NCBI RefSeq assembly: GCF_010548525.1
Contig: NZ_JAAGMG010001065.1
Coordinates: forward strand, 62,001-126,000
Source: Streptomyces sp. SID14478
GTDB taxonomy: Bacteria > Actinomycetota > Actinomycetes > Streptomycetales > Streptomycetaceae
DNA length: 64,000 nucleotides
Reading direction: 5' to 3'
This document shows positions 701 through 5,998 of this stretch, piece by piece; position 1 is the first letter of the stretch; each line of letters starts with the position of its first letter. Under the pieces are notes generated by a model. It was not told the DNA's origin and searched no databases. It saw only the letters and a program-made list of their open reading frames with translations. The position numbers were made by a program, and so were the translations under genes.

Positions 701-2263
701 CTACAGGACGGGAGCGCCGCCCCCTGTGCCGCCGAGGGCGTCCAGGTCGCTCTTGCGGACCCGAATGACGACGGTGGCGACGACGAGGGCGAGGACGCCC
801 ATGGCGGCGGCCGGGATGAAGGCCGTCGAGATGCCGTGGGAGAGCACTTCGTGACTCCATGGCGCGGGCAGTTGGTGGGACTTGGCGAAGGCGGCCTTCT
901 GCTCCGGTGTGGCTTTGGCCATGAACGACGCGACCTGCTTGGTCGCCTCGTCGCGGCTGGCCGAGCCGAAGACGGTGGTCAGGATGGAGAGCCCGAGCGA
1001 ACCACCCACCTGCTGGGTGGTGTTGAGCAGGGCGGAGGCCGCGCCCGCATCGTGCGGGGCGACGCCGGCGACGGCGGTGACGGTGAGGGTGACGAAGTTG
1101 AGTCCCATGCCGAAGCCGAAGATCAGCATCGGGCCCAGCACTCCGCCGGCGTACGAACTGCCGACGTCGACCATCGATTGCCAGACCAGACCGATGGTGA
1201 CGAAGGCCGCGCCGGATATCAGGAAGGGCTTGGGACCGAGCACGGGCAGCAGGCGCTGTGAGATTCCCGCCCCGAGCGCGATCACGACGGTGACCGGAAG
1301 GAAGGCGAGACCGGCCTTGGTCGGCGAGTAGCTCAGCACGTTCTGCACGAAGAGCACGATGTAGAAGAACATGCCGAACATCGCCGCAGCGAGGCTGATC
1401 ATGATCACGTACGTGCCTGAACGGTTGCGGTTGGTGAACATCCGCAGAGGCGTGATCGGCTCCTTCGCGCGGCTCTCGACGAGCATGAAGGCCGCGAGCA
1501 GCACCACGGCCGCCCCGAACGCGCCGAGCGTGAGCGAGTCCCGCCAGCCGTCGGACGCCGCCCGGATGAATCCGTAGACCAGAGCGACCATGCCGAGTGT
1601 CGAGGTGGCCGCTCCGGTGAGGTCGAAGCGGCCGGGGTGGCGCTCCGATTCGCTGATGTAGCGCGGTGCGAGCGCTGCGATGAGGATGCCGATGGGTACG
1701 TTCACGAAGAGCACCCAGCGCCAGTCGAGCAGGTCGGTCAGGACGCCACCCGCAAGGAGCCCGATGGCGCCTCCGCCCGCGGAGACGGCCGCGAAGATGC
1801 CGAACGCCCTGTTGCGTTCGGGGCCTTCGGGGAACGTCGTGGTGATGAGCGCGAGCGAGGTGGGTGAGGCGATCGCGCCTCCGGCCCCTTGGAGCACTCG
1901 CGCGGCCAGCAACTGCCAGGGTTCCTGGGCGAGTCCGCCGAGCAGGGACGCGAAGGTGAAGAGCAGGATGCCGGTGATGAAGACCCGACGGCGGCCGAGG
2001 ATGTCCCCGGCCCGACCGCCCAGCAGGAGCAGGCCGCCGAAGGTGAGGGTGTAGGCGCTGACCACCCAAGTGAGGTTCGTCGTCGAGAAGTTCAGCGCGG
2101 TCTGGATGTGCGGAAGCGCGATGTTCACGATCGTGGTATCCAGCACGACCATCAGCTGGCAGGCGGCGATGACCATGAGCGCGATGTTCCGGTGCCGCGC
2201 TTTCGCGGCGGCATCGGCTGGTGCGGACGCGGGCGACTGTGTCTCTATCTGATCGTACGTCAC
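701..2263 (-). CDS. DHA2-type MFS multidrug exporter
   Basis: A 520-residue membrane protein, the usual size of 14-helix drug:H+ antiporters of the EmrB/QacA (DHA2) group. The first helix holds the motif LDTTIVNIALP typical of these exporters, followed by GGRAGDILGRRR (motif A) in the loop after helix 2. I place the start at the GTG ending at 2263 because GGGGGGA lies just before it and the protein then opens VTYDQ; a longer frame exists to 2341. Two 18-bp GTGAAC-N6-GTTCAC palindromes sit 25 to 90 bp upstream and recur before the tetR gene at 4619. The pump is therefore probably repressed by that TetR. The exported compound is unknown. Confidence 0.9.
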   Translation of the reverse strand: MTYDQIETQSPASAPADAAAKARHRNIALMVIAACQLMVVLDTTIVNIALPHIQTALNFSTTNLTWVVSAYTLTFGGLLLLGGRAGDILGRRRVFITGILLFTFASLLGGLAQEPWQLLAARVLQGAGGAIASPTSLALITTTFPEGPERNRAFGIFAAVSAGGGAIGLLAGGVLTDLLDWRWVLFVNVPIGILIAALAPRYISESERHPGRFDLTGAATSTLGMVALVYGFIRAASDGWRDSLTLGAFGAAVVLLAAFMLVESRAKEPITPLRMFTNRNRSGTYVIMISLAAAMFGMFFYIVLFVQNVLSYSPTKAGLAFLPVTVVIALGAGISQRLLPVLGPKPFLISGAAFVTIGLVWQSMVDVGSSYAGGVLGPMLIFGFGMGLNFVTLTVTAVAGVAPHDAGAASALLNTTQQVGGSLGLSILTTVFGSASRDEATKQVASFMAKATPEQKAAFAKSHQLPAPWSHEVLSHGISTAFIPAAAMGVLALVVATVVIRVRKSDLDALGGTGGGAPVL

Positions 2264-2287: not shown

Positions 2288-2305
2288 GTGAACGTCAACG
2301 TTCAC
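2288..2305. promoter_or_regulatory. TetR-type operator, copy 1 (upstream of MFS exporter)
   Basis: GTGAACGTCAACGTTCAC is a palindrome broken only at the two central bases. It lies 25 bp before the GTG start of the exporter at 2263. The outer bases TA on both sides extend the symmetry. Same motif as copies at 2334, 4498 and 4546. Confidence 0.7.
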
Positions 2306-2333
2306 TAAGCGAGACCATAGCGAGTCGCCCTTC

Positions 2334-2351
2334 GTGAACACAAGCGTTCAC
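2334..2351. promoter_or_regulatory. TetR-type operator, copy 2 (upstream of MFS exporter)
   Basis: GTGAACACAAGCGTTCAC keeps the GTGAAC and GTTCAC arms with a different centre. It lies 46 bp (start to start) from copy 1, so two dimers could bind upstream of the exporter. Confidence 0.65.
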
Positions 2352-2473
2352 TAAAGGAGTTGACTCCAAGCGGCCTTGGCGGGTTGAGCGACGTGACGCA
2401 GCAGACGTTGTCGGGTCTCGGCGACCTCGGTCCGAGCCCCTGGGACGGGCGACTCCCGGCGAGTGCGGCCCGT

Positions 2474-3697
2474 TCACTGACGTCGCTCGAACGCCCACAC
2501 CACAAGTCCCAGGCAGCTGAACGCGGCACCCAGTGCGCAGACCGCACCCCAACCGGACGCCGCGTAGAGGGTGCTCGCGGAAAGGGCGCCGGTCGCACTG
2601 CCGAGGGAGTAGAAGATCATGTACCCGCCGATCAGTCGGCTGCCGGCGTCCGGGCGGAGCGCGTAGATCAGGGTCTGATTGGTGACATGAACCGCCTGTA
2701 CCGCCAGGTCGAGTAGGACCACCCCCGCGGCCAGGGCCCACAGGGAGCTGCGAGTGAAGGCCAAGGGGAGCCATGAGGCAGTGAGCAGGGACAAGGCGAT
2801 GCCGGTGGTGCGTCGGGACAGTCCGCGGTCGTTCAGGCGACCCGCGGCGGTCGCGGCCAGGGCGCCGGTGACCCCGATCAGTCCGAGCGCCCCGATCGCG
2901 CTGTGGGACAGGAAATACGGGGCCGCGCTGAGCGGCAGCGCGACGCTGCTCCACAAGGTGCTGAAGGCCGCGAAGACAAGCAGGCCGAACAGGGCGCGGC
3001 GCCGCAGCACGCGCTCCGTCGCGAACAGGGTGACGGTCGAGCGCAGGAGCTGTCCGTAGCGCAGGGGCGACGCTGGGGCAGGAGGGCGGCGCGGCAGTAC
3101 CCGGTGCAGGATCAGGGCGAGCAGTGCCGTGAGTGACGCGGAGGCCAGGTAGACGGAGTGCCAGCCCGCGAGGTCGGCCATCAGGCCGGAAGCGGTGCGG
3201 GCGAGCAGGATCCCCAGAAGGACGCCGCTGGTGACCAGTCCGACGACCTTCCCGCGCTCGGCGACTGCCGCCAGAGATGCCGCGTAGGCCACCAATGTCT
3301 GTGTGACGACGGCGAAGAGGCCCGTCGCAGCCATGCCGACGAGCAGGGTTGCCGCCGTGCGGGCAGAGGCCACCACGGCCAGTGCCACCACCAGGAGCAG
3401 CAACTGGCACACGATGAGCCGCCTGCGGTCAACCACGTCGCCCAGCGGCACGAGGAAGAAGAGCCCGACGCCGTAACCGACCTGCGTGAGCGTGACCACG
3501 GCGCCGACCAGTGCCGGGCTCATGGCGAGGTCGTGCCCCATGGTCACCAGGAGTGGCTGCGAGAAGTAGACGTTGGCCACCGAGGCCCCGCAGGCGGCGG
3601 CGAACAGGAGGATGACGCCCCGGGGCAGGACGAACGTGGCACCTTCCTGGTCGCGGGGCCCGGGTCGCTGCGTCACGGCCTCGCAATTGCCGTCCAT
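2474..3697 (-). CDS. MFS transporter (DHA1-like, 12 helices)
   Basis: A 407-residue membrane protein with the hydrophobic pattern of a 12-helix major facilitator. Motif A is visible as PLGDVVDRRRL after the second helix. The start at 3697 is supported by AAAGGAG placed 5 bases before the ATG; the frame is open a further 22 codons upstream without a better site. The opening helix (ASVANVYFSQPLL) resembles sugar-efflux and drug-efflux members of the family. It is divergent from an HxlR regulator, with two near-identical binding-site candidates between them, so control by that regulator is likely. Substrate unknown. Confidence 0.88.
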   Translation of the reverse strand: MDGNCEAVTQRPGPRDQEGATFVLPRGVILLFAAACGASVANVYFSQPLLVTMGHDLAMSPALVGAVVTLTQVGYGVGLFFLVPLGDVVDRRRLIVCQLLLLVVALAVVASARTAATLLVGMAATGLFAVVTQTLVAYAASLAAVAERGKVVGLVTSGVLLGILLARTASGLMADLAGWHSVYLASASLTALLALILHRVLPRRPPAPASPLRYGQLLRSTVTLFATERVLRRRALFGLLVFAAFSTLWSSVALPLSAAPYFLSHSAIGALGLIGVTGALAATAAGRLNDRGLSRRTTGIALSLLTASWLPLAFTRSSLWALAAGVVLLDLAVQAVHVTNQTLIYALRPDAGSRLIGGYMIFYSLGSATGALSASTLYAASGWGAVCALGAAFSCLGLVVWAFERRQ

Positions 3698-3716
3698 TAG
3701 CACTCCTTTATCCACG

Positions 3717-3734
3717 TGGTTGCAAGTTGCTACC
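3717..3734. promoter_or_regulatory. Candidate HxlR operator, copy 1
   Basis: TGGTTGCAAGTTGCTACC, an imperfect palindrome with half-sites of the GTWGCAA type. It lies between the divergent MFS and hxlR-type genes, 20 bp from the MFS start. The opposite strand carries the same sequence with two central changes at 3756-3773. It also overlaps a longer inverted repeat, tccacgtggt (3711-3720) and accacgtgga (3732-3741). Confidence 0.55.
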
Positions 3735-3755
3735 ACGTGGACGCTAACTTCTTTT

Positions 3756-3773
3756 GGTAGCATGTTGCAACCA
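3756..3773. promoter_or_regulatory. Candidate HxlR operator, copy 2
   Basis: Read on the minus strand this is TGGTTGCAACATGCTACC, matching copy 1 at 16 of 18 bases. It lies about 30 bp before the regulator gene, so it could mediate autoregulation. Confidence 0.55.
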
Positions 3774-3804
3774 GTATGCGTAAGAGAAGGTGAGGGGCGC
3801 CGTG

Positions 3805-4263
3805 GTGACCAGGACGCGCTTCGACGACAGTGAATGTCCCGTTGCCCGGTCGGTGGACGCGATCGGGGACTGGTGGTCCCTGCTGATCGTGCGGGACGCC
3901 TTTGACGGGAGCCGGCGCTTCGGAGAGTTCCAGCGCAGCCTCGGCGTCGCGAAGAACATCCTCACCGCGCGCCTGCGGGCGCTGGTCGCCGGCGGCGTCC
4001 TCGAATCCGTCCCGGCCTCGGACGGCAGCGCCTACCGCGAGTACGTCCTCACGGCGAAGGGCAAGGAGCTCTTTCCCGTCATCGTGGCGCTGCGGCAGTG
4101 GGGCGAACGAAACTTCTTCGCCCCGGGAGAACCGCACTCGGAACTGGTCGACGGCGACAACGGCCAGCGCCTCCGTCCGCTGGAGGTGGTGGCCGCCGAC
4201 GGACGGCGACTGCACCCCGACGACACCGCCGTCCATAAGGTCCGCCCCGCGAGCGACAACTGA
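3805..4263 (+). CDS. HxlR-family winged-helix regulator
   Basis: A 152-residue protein of the HxlR family. It shows the family hallmarks: DSECPVARSVDAIGDWWSLLI with the N-terminal cysteine and WSLLI stretch, then RFGEFQRSLGVAKNILTARL as the recognition helix region, then a wing with YVLTAKGKEL. Family members are DNA-binding repressors or activators, some sensing oxidants or quinones through that cysteine. Three GTG codons are possible (3790, 3802, 3805); AAGGTGAGG at 3787-3795 fits the latter two, and residues from 3805 match the usual family start. It faces the MFS gene at 2474 and probably controls it. Confidence 0.88.
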   Translation: MTRTRFDDSECPVARSVDAIGDWWSLLIVRDAFDGSRRFGEFQRSLGVAKNILTARLRALVAGGVLESVPASDGSAYREYVLTAKGKELFPVIVALRQWGERNFFAPGEPHSELVDGDNGQRLRPLEVVAADGRRLHPDDTAVHKVRPASDN

Positions 4264-4497
4264 TCGCCTGTACGCGGCTCTTGACCGGTCGATCGCTTCC
4301 GGTGTGTGTCCGCGTTATCGCCAGAACGGGGACTGCCTGACATGCTCACCGAGGGAGTGGCCGCGTCGTGGGCCCGCCGCGGGCGGGCGGCGATGACGGT
4401 GAGTGCGTCTCGCGCGCCCCAACCGATGCACGGCTCCCGGGTGCTGATCCTGCGTCGACGGAGAGGTTGTCACTATGGACCCCCCACGAGCGGGTCG

Positions 4498-4515
4498 GTG
4501 AATGATCCTGTTCAC
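4498..4515. promoter_or_regulatory. TetR-type operator, copy 3 (upstream of tetR)
   Basis: GTGAATGATCCTGTTCAC, differing from the consensus GTGAAC-N6-GTTCAC at one arm base. It lies about 105 bp before the tetR start. Confidence 0.6.
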
Positions 4516-4545
4516 TGTCGCGTCTGCGGCGGCGACTCCCCTGCG

Positions 4546-4563
4546 GTGAACGTGCCCGTTCAC
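4546..4563. promoter_or_regulatory. TetR-type operator, copy 4 (upstream of tetR)
   Basis: GTGAACGTGCCCGTTCAC, with perfect eight-base arms apart from the centre. It lies 48 bp (start to start) from copy 3, close to the 46-bp spacing of the pair before the exporter gene. Confidence 0.65.
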
Positions 4564-4618
4564 CGACATCGCTGCCGCGCGTCTCGTACCGCTCGCCCTG
4601 CTCAACGGAGAGATGACG

Positions 4619-5245
4619 ATGGTTACTTCGCGCTGGACGGCCTCCTCCGCTCCGTCGGCCGCCGCGATGCGCAGGCGTGGTCCCGTACTGGAACGGGCCA
4701 TCCTGGATGCCGCCCTGGACCAGCTCAGCACGGTCGGCTGGAACGGCCTCACCATGGAAGGCGTCGCCGCGGGCGCGCAGACCGGAAAGGCCGCGGTGTA
4801 CCGGCGCTGGCCCTCCAAGGAGGACCTCGTCGTCGACGCCCTCCAGGCCGGACTGCCGAAGCTGGACTCCATCCCTGACCACGGGAGCGTGCGGGAGGAC
4901 CTGCTGGAGCTGTGCCGGCAGATCCGGGAGGGCATGTACTCACGACCCGGATTTGCTCTGCGGTCTGTCCTTCACGAATGCGACACCTTTACCGCCGAAC
5001 GCTTCCATGCGGTGATCGTCGAAGGTGTCATCGAGCCCAGCGTCCAGGTGATCAAGGAGGTCGTACGCCGTGGGATCGAGCGCGGTGAGGTGCGCCCAGA
5101 CGCCGCGAACTCCTCCGTGTACGACGTCATCCCCGCGATGATGATGTACCGCTCCAAGGTGTGCGGAAGCGAATGGGTGGAGGTGGATCTGGTGGAGATG
5201 ATCGACCAGGTCGTGGTGCCCCTGGTGCGGCGGCACGCGGACTGA
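4619..5245 (+). CDS. TetR/AcrR-family repressor
   Basis: A 208-residue TetR-type regulator. The N-terminal helix-turn-helix is clear around residues 35-70 (LTMEGVAAGAQTGKAAVYRR then WPSKEDLV); the rest is an all-helical ligand-binding domain of ordinary length. I chose the ATG at 4619 because GGAGAG lies 6 bases before it; the ATG at 4613 touches that site. Two GTGAAC-N6-GTTCAC palindromes lie upstream, as in typical autoregulated tetR genes. The same palindrome pair occurs before the MFS exporter at 701-2263, with another transporter and regulator between, so this repressor is inferred to control that pump. Confidence 0.88.
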   Translation: MVTSRWTASSAPSAAAMRRRGPVLERAILDAALDQLSTVGWNGLTMEGVAAGAQTGKAAVYRRWPSKEDLVVDALQAGLPKLDSIPDHGSVREDLLELCRQIREGMYSRPGFALRSVLHECDTFTAERFHAVIVEGVIEPSVQVIKEVVRRGIERGEVRPDAANSSVYDVIPAMMMYRSKVCGSEWVEVDLVEMIDQVVVPLVRRHAD

Positions 5246-5296
5246 GCCCGGCCGGGTGTCGCGGCGGCACGGCGGCGGCGTACGCTGTGTGCCGCC

Positions 5297-5998
5297 ATGC
5301 CGTACGAAGCACCCACTCACACCGTCGAGCGCTCACTGCGCGCCACCACCGGAGCCAAGATCGTCGCCGGTGTCGATGAGGTCGGCCGCGGTGCCTGGGC
5401 CGGCCCGGTCACCGTCTGCGCCGCCGTCACGGGGCTGCGCCGCCCGCCCGAGGGGCTGACCGACTCCAAGCTGATCAGCCCCAAGCGGCGCGAGACGCTC
5501 GCCACGGAGCTGGAGAGCTGGGTCACCGCGCACGCCCTCGGGCACGCCTCGCACGAGGAGATCGACGACCTGGGGATGACCGCGGCGCTGCGTCTCGCTG
5601 CGGTGCGCGCCCTGGAGGGTCTGCCGGTCCAGCCGGACGCGGTCATCCTGGACGGGAAGCACGACTACCTGGGTGCGCCCTGGAAGGTCCGTACGGTGAT
5701 CAAGGGCGACCGTTCCTGCATCGCTGTCGCCGCAGCCTCGGTGATCGCCAAGGTCCGTCGCGACAAAATGATGGCCGAACTGGGCATCGACCATGCAGAC
5801 TTCGGGTTTGCGGCCAACGCCGGATACCCGTCGCCGGTGCATCGCGCCGCGTTGGAGGAGCGGGGGCCCACCCCGCACCACCGGCTTTCGTGGGCGTATC
5901 TTGATGCGTTGCCCCAGTGGCGGCACCTCAAGAAGGCCCGCAGCTGGGCGGACGCAAGTGTTCCGGAAATCGAGGGCCAGCTCGGCTTCGACTTCTGA
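5297..5998 (+). CDS. rnhB: Ribonuclease HII
   Basis: A 233-residue RNase HII, which cuts the RNA strand of RNA/DNA hybrids and removes single ribonucleotides from DNA. The catalytic start motif [14 protein letters not shown] (first Asp-Glu pair) is near residue 26. It is followed by [12 protein letters not shown], the [10 protein letters not shown] helix, the DGKHDYL segment with a conserved Asp, and [18 protein letters not shown] and the HHRLSW segment close the domain. A TACGCT hexamer ten bases before the ATG and the lack of a ribosome site suggest a very short or absent leader. Confidence 0.97.

Follow-up and report, generated by a model that had tools for sequence, protein, structure and literature searches.

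Two features of bacterial repressor–pump loci frame the comparison made here. In TetR/tetA, a repressor and an efflux pump are divergently encoded and two palindromic operators in the shared region control both promoters, and Streptomyces regulators lying <200 bp from a divergent neighbour were reported to repress that neighbour (PMC3511530). The ancestral form of the locus described below resembles TetR/tetA in having a divergent repressor and pump with two palindromic operators in the shared region, and it resembles ActR/ActA and other Streptomyces TetR-family regulators in its MFS export target and intergenic operators (PMC3511530). It differs from TetR/tetA, as presented there, in that its sites span 18 bp and not 15 bp, its repressor belongs to the TetR_C_11 subfamily, its pump is a DHA2 exporter and the shared region is broken up in our window (PMC3511530). 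The window is the whole stretch of 64,000 nucleotides that was analysed, from contig NZ_JAAGMG010001065.1 of the soil bacterium Streptomyces sp. SID14478. This kind of system is well known; the point of interest is a probable exporter swap whose traces can be seen in place. In xenologous gene displacement in situ, a distant homologue takes over the position of a gene. The present case departs from that pattern in two ways: the incoming exporter appears to bring operators of the repressor already in residence, and remnants of the former exporter gene are still there.

Two candidate operator pairs lie beside tetR and a distant exporter

The window encodes a DHA2/EmrB-type MFS exporter (exporter B, a likely xenologous replacement placed in clade B of the exporter tree; 701–2263, minus strand; Pfam MFS_1, 5e-54), which scores 245.1 bits against NCBIfam TIGR00711 (EmrB, cutoff 230.2). 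The TetR-family repressor gene lies at 4613–5245 (plus strand), and its product has a TetR_N helix-turn-helix domain (PF00440, E = 1.7e-12, 47.4 bits against a cutoff of 24) followed by TetR_C_11 (3.1e-21); a search of solved structures returned 11 TetR-like sequences, the best being 2fq4_A (E = 7.3e-14). We take SCO5811 to be the S. coelicolor counterpart of this TetR. The literature searched contained no binding study of the protein, SCO5811 appearing in one table only, and a search on the motif together with Streptomyces TetR regulators and efflux brought up nothing related. The gene at 5297–5998 (plus strand), presumably rnhB (RNase HII), is a conserved flank found beside tetR in 30 of 30 loci and serves as the anchor of the locus. 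Exporter B and tetR are separated by 2350 bp, which places the window outside the class of divergent neighbours <200 bp apart.

An earlier note on this DNA had reported four copies of one operator, GTGAAC-N6-GTTCAC. Three of these 18-bp palindromes are exact (2288–2305, 2334–2351 and 4546–4563), while the fourth (4498–4515, GTGAATGATCCTGTTCAC) is a near-copy with one mismatch, its half-site reading GTGAAT. The rest of that description stands, as the start-to-start distances within the pairs are 46 and 48 bp and the gene calls put one pair before the DHA2 exporter and the other before tetR. On the exporter side, the site at 2288–2305 lies near the start of exporter B and is predicted to overlap the first transcribed bases, and the site at 2334–2351 holds the predicted exporter –35 box TTGTGT (2338–2343, minus strand), with the predicted –10 box TATGGT at 2314–2319 (minus strand) in the arrangement TTG-N18-TAnnnT beside the pair. 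On the tetR side, 4498–4515 and 4546–4563 are the exporter-proximal and tetR-proximal members of an old pair of the type that accompanies A exporters in relatives.

Allowing ≤2 mismatches, the window has 7 matches where 1.75 are expected (sd 1.40; 100 shuffles, maximum 5, none reaching 7), and the 3 matches beyond the four sites have 2 mismatches each. Across the genome (9,066,559 bases in 1499 contigs) GTGAAY-N6-GTTCAC matches perfectly at the four sites only, so the earlier worry that the motif might be frequent genome-wide falls away; 13 further scattered places match with one mismatch, and a reversed control pattern gave 6+5 matches in the genome scan vs 14+15 for the real pattern. The 9.07-Mb genome contains no further perfect site that would indicate a wider regulon. 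Chance palindromes are ruled out by the window shuffles, the genome scan and the reversed controls in the genus together with the class-level counts given below.

Relatives show a probable ancestral layout, with a single pair in a short gap

Counting the genome of the window itself, 182 of 295 genus genomes encode the TetR (E ≤ 1e-30). In 27 of 29 relatives' loci with DNA, tetR and a DHA2 exporter gene diverge from a short gap that contains a single site pair, the exceptions being L020 (G059) and L044 (G097). Among 80 named exporter loci, a set that overlaps with the 29, 74 hold both exporter and tetR, and 70 of these have the same ancestral layout with gaps of 120–221 bp and one operator pair apiece; the four that depart from it are L182, L186, L187 and L188. 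The six named loci without TetR are the B-type L183, L184 and L185, and L191, L217 and L226, which are on shorter stretches. These 70 loci, which we call A-layout, mostly fit the 200-bp rule of PMC3511530. The window has a 2.35 kb gap and still an intact pair at the exporter, and here the rule would mislead.

Of 392 genus genomes, 178 have an exact pair, never more than one each (reversed control, 0 of 392). At class level the pair is present in 12 of 246 genomes, all 12 among the 22 that belong to the window's genus. When the 295 genomes of the TetR search are taken to be G000–G294, pair and TetR occur together in 134, the pair alone in 1 (G242), TetR alone in 48 and neither in 112. We viewed DNA for 25 of the 48 TetR-bearing genomes (out of 182) that have no exact pair, and 23 of them have a mismatched pair; the other two, G146 and G205, have a single site only. 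The fetched piece of G146 holds tetR and one site and no exporter, while G205 has one intact site and an exporter, labelled B before its tree placement was seen, that sits on a long branch with the A-type G123, leaving its assignment ambiguous. The 46 relative loci used in these comparisons are a non-random choice (6 by interest, 20 for having no exact pair, 20 ordinary). G242, the only one of 135 exact-pair genomes with no TetR match at E ≤ 1e-30, is a draft of about 1350 contigs, and a contig break may account for the absent TetR.

From this conservation, the palindrome pairs look like operators of the TetR/exporter unit, as had been proposed: the pair is conserved between the divergent genes, and all exact-pair genomes save one have the TetR. 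That another regulator binds the palindromes we consider highly improbable; the joint presence of pair and TetR (134 to 1), their joint absence in 112 genomes and the restriction of perfect sites to the neighbourhood of this tetR, with none elsewhere in the genome, speak against it.

An alignment of 76 distinct pairs with 48-bp spacing shows conserved half-sites, which lengthen to AGTGAACG-N4-CGTTCACT; for the half-sites this conservation is partly by construction because sites were chosen at ≤1 mismatch. The boxes outside them were not so chosen, and the same 76 pairs have conserved TTGCGT-N18-TACCGT towards the exporter and TNGCGT-N18-TAGTGA towards tetR. The two –10 boxes overlap and each –35 falls inside one operator. 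We read these boxes as two putative overlapping divergent promoters, and the ancestral pair would then act in both directions as a single control region, each of its operators enclosing a –35 box, so that one repressor would block both genes. Within the TetR, residues 27–75 (the DNA-binding domain) have a mean conservation of 96% vs 78% for residues 87–200, and the helix TGKAAVYRRW is 97–100% conserved per position, over 120 rows that, like the 112 non-B loci used below, contain some genomes twice because G-numbered and named loci overlap (L182 = G059; probably G081 = L210 and G084 = L221) and only G059 was removed before the counts.

In the control scheme that we propose, paired 18-bp palindromes would place a DHA2 multidrug-type exporter under a TetR-family repressor. 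In the ancestral state, with one pair and two overlapping divergent promoters in a short shared intergenic region, the repressor would shut both the exporter and tetR, and a substrate of the exporter would relieve repression.

The exporter of the window belongs to a different clade

The exporter of the window falls into a clade B of nine (window, L182 (G059), L183–L188 and G061; SH-aLRT 100), which in a later tree is supported at 100/98 for the six of these members used there. B loci have a pair 46 bp apart wherever both sites are recognisable, the second site of L183 being gone, and a B′ group (G097, G247 and G163) with similar sites 45–46 bp apart forms a separate exporter clade. A TTG-type –35, N18 and TAnnnT lie beside the pair in 11 of the 12 B/B′ loci, the window included and L184 being the miss, under a search expression that fixed the N18 spacing.

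The TetRs tell a different history. The window's TetR groups with those of L188, L182 and L187 and then with G103 and L244, and the TetRs of L186, G061, G097, G163 and G247 fall elsewhere in the TetR tree. Those of L186 and G061 share a supported group (96/95) with TetRs of A-type hosts, and B is therefore found in at least two TetR backgrounds. An exporter tree constrained to unite the window with its neighbours in the TetR tree is worse by 144 lnL (p-AU 1.5e-8), and a TetR tree constrained to unite six B hosts is worse by 87 lnL (p-AU 3.3e-5), for groups that were picked after quick trees had been viewed.

Could exporter B instead be a fast-evolving A allele, its pair a local duplication, with no transfer involved? 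The shared locus, the shared operators, the about 80% identity of the exporter B protein to A exporters and the weak support for the junction of clade B with the A exporters (90/63; A itself 84/63) would all fit. However, the B exporters of the window, L186 and G061 group together while their TetRs do not, the AU tests reject the corresponding constraints, and L186 contains both A pieces and an intact B. We regard the allelic explanation as quite unlikely. The earlier note's account of an older TetR/exporter pair is not supported either, since the present exporter appears to be a replacement from another clade, the TetR tree conflicts with it and a stub of the original exporter persists. A replacement in place is the reading that we prefer: in the window's lineage, exporter A would have been disrupted and its chromosomal position taken by the distantly related exporter B, which would have arrived with an operator pair of its own, spaced 46 bp and driving only the exporter.

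Beside exporter B, L183 and L185 have no TetR within 6 kb and L184 holds <1 kb on that side; B exporters may live without TetR in L183 and L185. Both of these loci have a tRNA 3′-end-like sequence (GGTTCGAGTCCC) on the tetR side of the exporter, about 200–240 bp from its start, possibly an integrative-element junction that splits the locus. L078 (G097) has a 1.5-kb gap between exporter B′ and tetR with a 319-aa open frame at 4311–5270, perhaps part of a longer regulator gene.

A stub of exporter A remains beside the tetR-side pair

At 4417–4490 (minus strand) lies the stub of a lost exporter A, about 19–21 codons long with a start codon at 4471–4473 and a ribosome-binding site at 4477–4485. 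Positions 4444–4490 match the start region of A-type exporters, ribosome-binding stretch and start codon included, in a comparison covering seven A-type rows. At the DNA level, 4440–4497 matches 104 of the 112 non-B loci, and in 97 the projected position coincides exactly with the operator there; 20 shuffled stubs gave 7 locus matches in total. The stub protein has 56 matches, weak ones, all of them to A-type exporters; a separate comparison gave E values of 0.11–0.14. The same stub is present in L182, L186 and L187; searched for by DNA match, it was not found in L183, L185, L188, G061, G247, G163, G097 or G205, and L184 gave only a 14-base match, elsewhere. By these matches, the tetR-side pair is the putative control region of the lost original exporter A.

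On the far side of exporter B, L183, L185 and L186 have fragments that are closer to A than to B exporters. L186 has codons 1–41 of A on the tetR side and about 47–203 on the other side with an intact B between them, an arrangement that, as aligned, suggests that A was interrupted around codon 41–47. Some alignments of the far-side A fragment in L186 and L183 begin at residue 7–8, not 41–47, and overlap the stub, which makes it uncertain that A was split cleanly. L186 (Streptomyces sp. Ag109_O5-1) also has one exact A-type site beside tetR and is the best living intermediate that we have seen.

What has become of the tetR-side pair is less clear-cut. The window's copy of this pair has changes at 7 of 13 positions in the promoter core but at 1 of 24 in the half-sites (Fisher p 0.0011, for one sequence and with both classes defined by us). 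Of ten extended operator positions conserved in relatives, five have changed by alignment count, and the pair is eroded in L182, L187 and L188. A promoter-like element, TCGCCA-N17-CATGCT (4318–4346, plus strand), which is a motif-only match, is proposed as the present tetR promoter; its –35-like part is weak in the window and in G097. A counterpart lies upstream of tetR in 9 of the 9 B/B′ loci that have tetR, the constancy of its spacing being partly by construction because the search expression fixed it. As the old promoter boxes have decayed, tetR is probably transcribed from this upstream element. The old pair beside tetR would then be a relic, or else still serve in autoregulation or as a roadblock. 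That it is nothing but a relic, without any function today, has, in our estimate, a little under an even chance: the loss of the promoter boxes, the changes in the core and in half of the extended operator positions and the erosion of the same pair in three relatives speak for it, and the near-intact half-sites speak against it, within the limits of that one-sequence test. The old pair, downstream of the proposed new tetR promoter, may still bind TetR or may have ceased to do so.

An HxlR/MFS2 module is inserted between the pairs

The segment separating the two pairs carries a second transporter gene, MFS2 (2474–3697, minus strand; Pfam MFS_1, 1.1e-37), and an HxlR-family regulator gene (3802–4263, plus strand; Pfam HxlR PF01638, 7.4e-20), which adjoin each other in 8 copies at other loci. 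Homology breakpoints against insert-free loci place the inserted segment at approximately 2370–4317: the insert-free loci match up to 2367–2369 and resume at 4446–4448 (L182 and L187), 4379 (L186) and 4527 (L188). With the 8 fetched other-locus copies, the module shares homology only over 2488/2489 to 4239–4255. Between HxlR and MFS2, an inverted site pair (TGGTTGCAAGTTGCTACCA / TTGGTAGCATGTTGCAACC, 3717–3772), with similar sites by eye in L174–L181, is probably the module's own control region, in agreement with the earlier statement that the HxlR/MFS unit has different sites. A literature search on divergent HxlR/MFS genes in Streptomyces gave no match.

Of the 295 genus genomes, 46 encode HxlR relatives, a count that includes the genome of the window. 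The 8-kb stretches around the 8 HxlR/MFS2 copies contain none of the window's exporter, TetR and flanking genes, and in the 14 other genomes with both listed, HxlR and TetR are on different contigs (drafts) or >600 kb apart. Conversely, the 80 named exporter loci, 6 of which do not reach or hold tetR, have no HxlR or MFS2 above 50% identity, and a left-junction probe is complete in the window's own genome only (0 of 119 other relatives). Together the breakpoints, the other-locus copies and the absence from the exporter loci bear out the suggestion that the HxlR/MFS unit is lodged as an insert.

The comparison with strains that have no middle pair of genes, which had been proposed at the outset, is provided by L182 (G059) and L187, both of which show the B pair and an eroded A pair with its stub. 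Since these two loci carry both pairs with no insert, the pairs are not one set that was split or copied by the insert. This bears directly on the simplest alternative, that HxlR/MFS2 inserted into the gap of the original TetR/exporter pair, whose operators were duplicated or always double. The module is indeed inserted and both pairs flank it, but the 70 A-layout loci have one pair each, L182 and L187 already have the B pair and the A stub, and the exporter and TetR trees conflict; such an insertion with operator duplication is largely refuted, and we reject it as very unlikely.

By the exporter swap that we favour, a self-contained HxlR/MFS2 module would have inserted between the pairs after the swap. 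Either the module was the latest arrival or the near relatives have lost it, and late arrival is the simpler of the two.

Implications

Taken together, the alignments and trees make it likely that exporter A was swapped for a foreign exporter B with its own operator pair, that the old pair and the stub were retained, and that HxlR/MFS2 was later wedged in. The sites, gene order, conservation, co-occurrence, stub, tree conflict and insert boundaries in this account are computed. We infer TetR binding, repression, the promoter positions and the ligand, as well as the direction, order and number of the events. The control circuit itself looks like an ordinary TetR–exporter switch, and the visible pump swap looks to be the interesting part.

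More tentatively, exporters with built-in operators might be interchangeable cassettes that repeatedly enter the chromosomal slot next to a conserved repressor (for B, two TetR backgrounds at least and perhaps three; for B′, two), tetR gaining a new promoter and keeping the old pair as a remote autoregulatory site; with the operator retained, foreign exporters would come directly under the repressor already present.

The analysis provides a clean candidate operator for a TetR found in 182 of the 295 sampled genus genomes, and the window illustrates that gene distance alone can hide a regulatory link. With its intermediates in living relatives, the locus shows how a pump–repressor switch can exchange its pump and keep its sensor. 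If the substrate range of the incoming exporter differs, the ligand of the repressor and the cargo of the pump may be mismatched.
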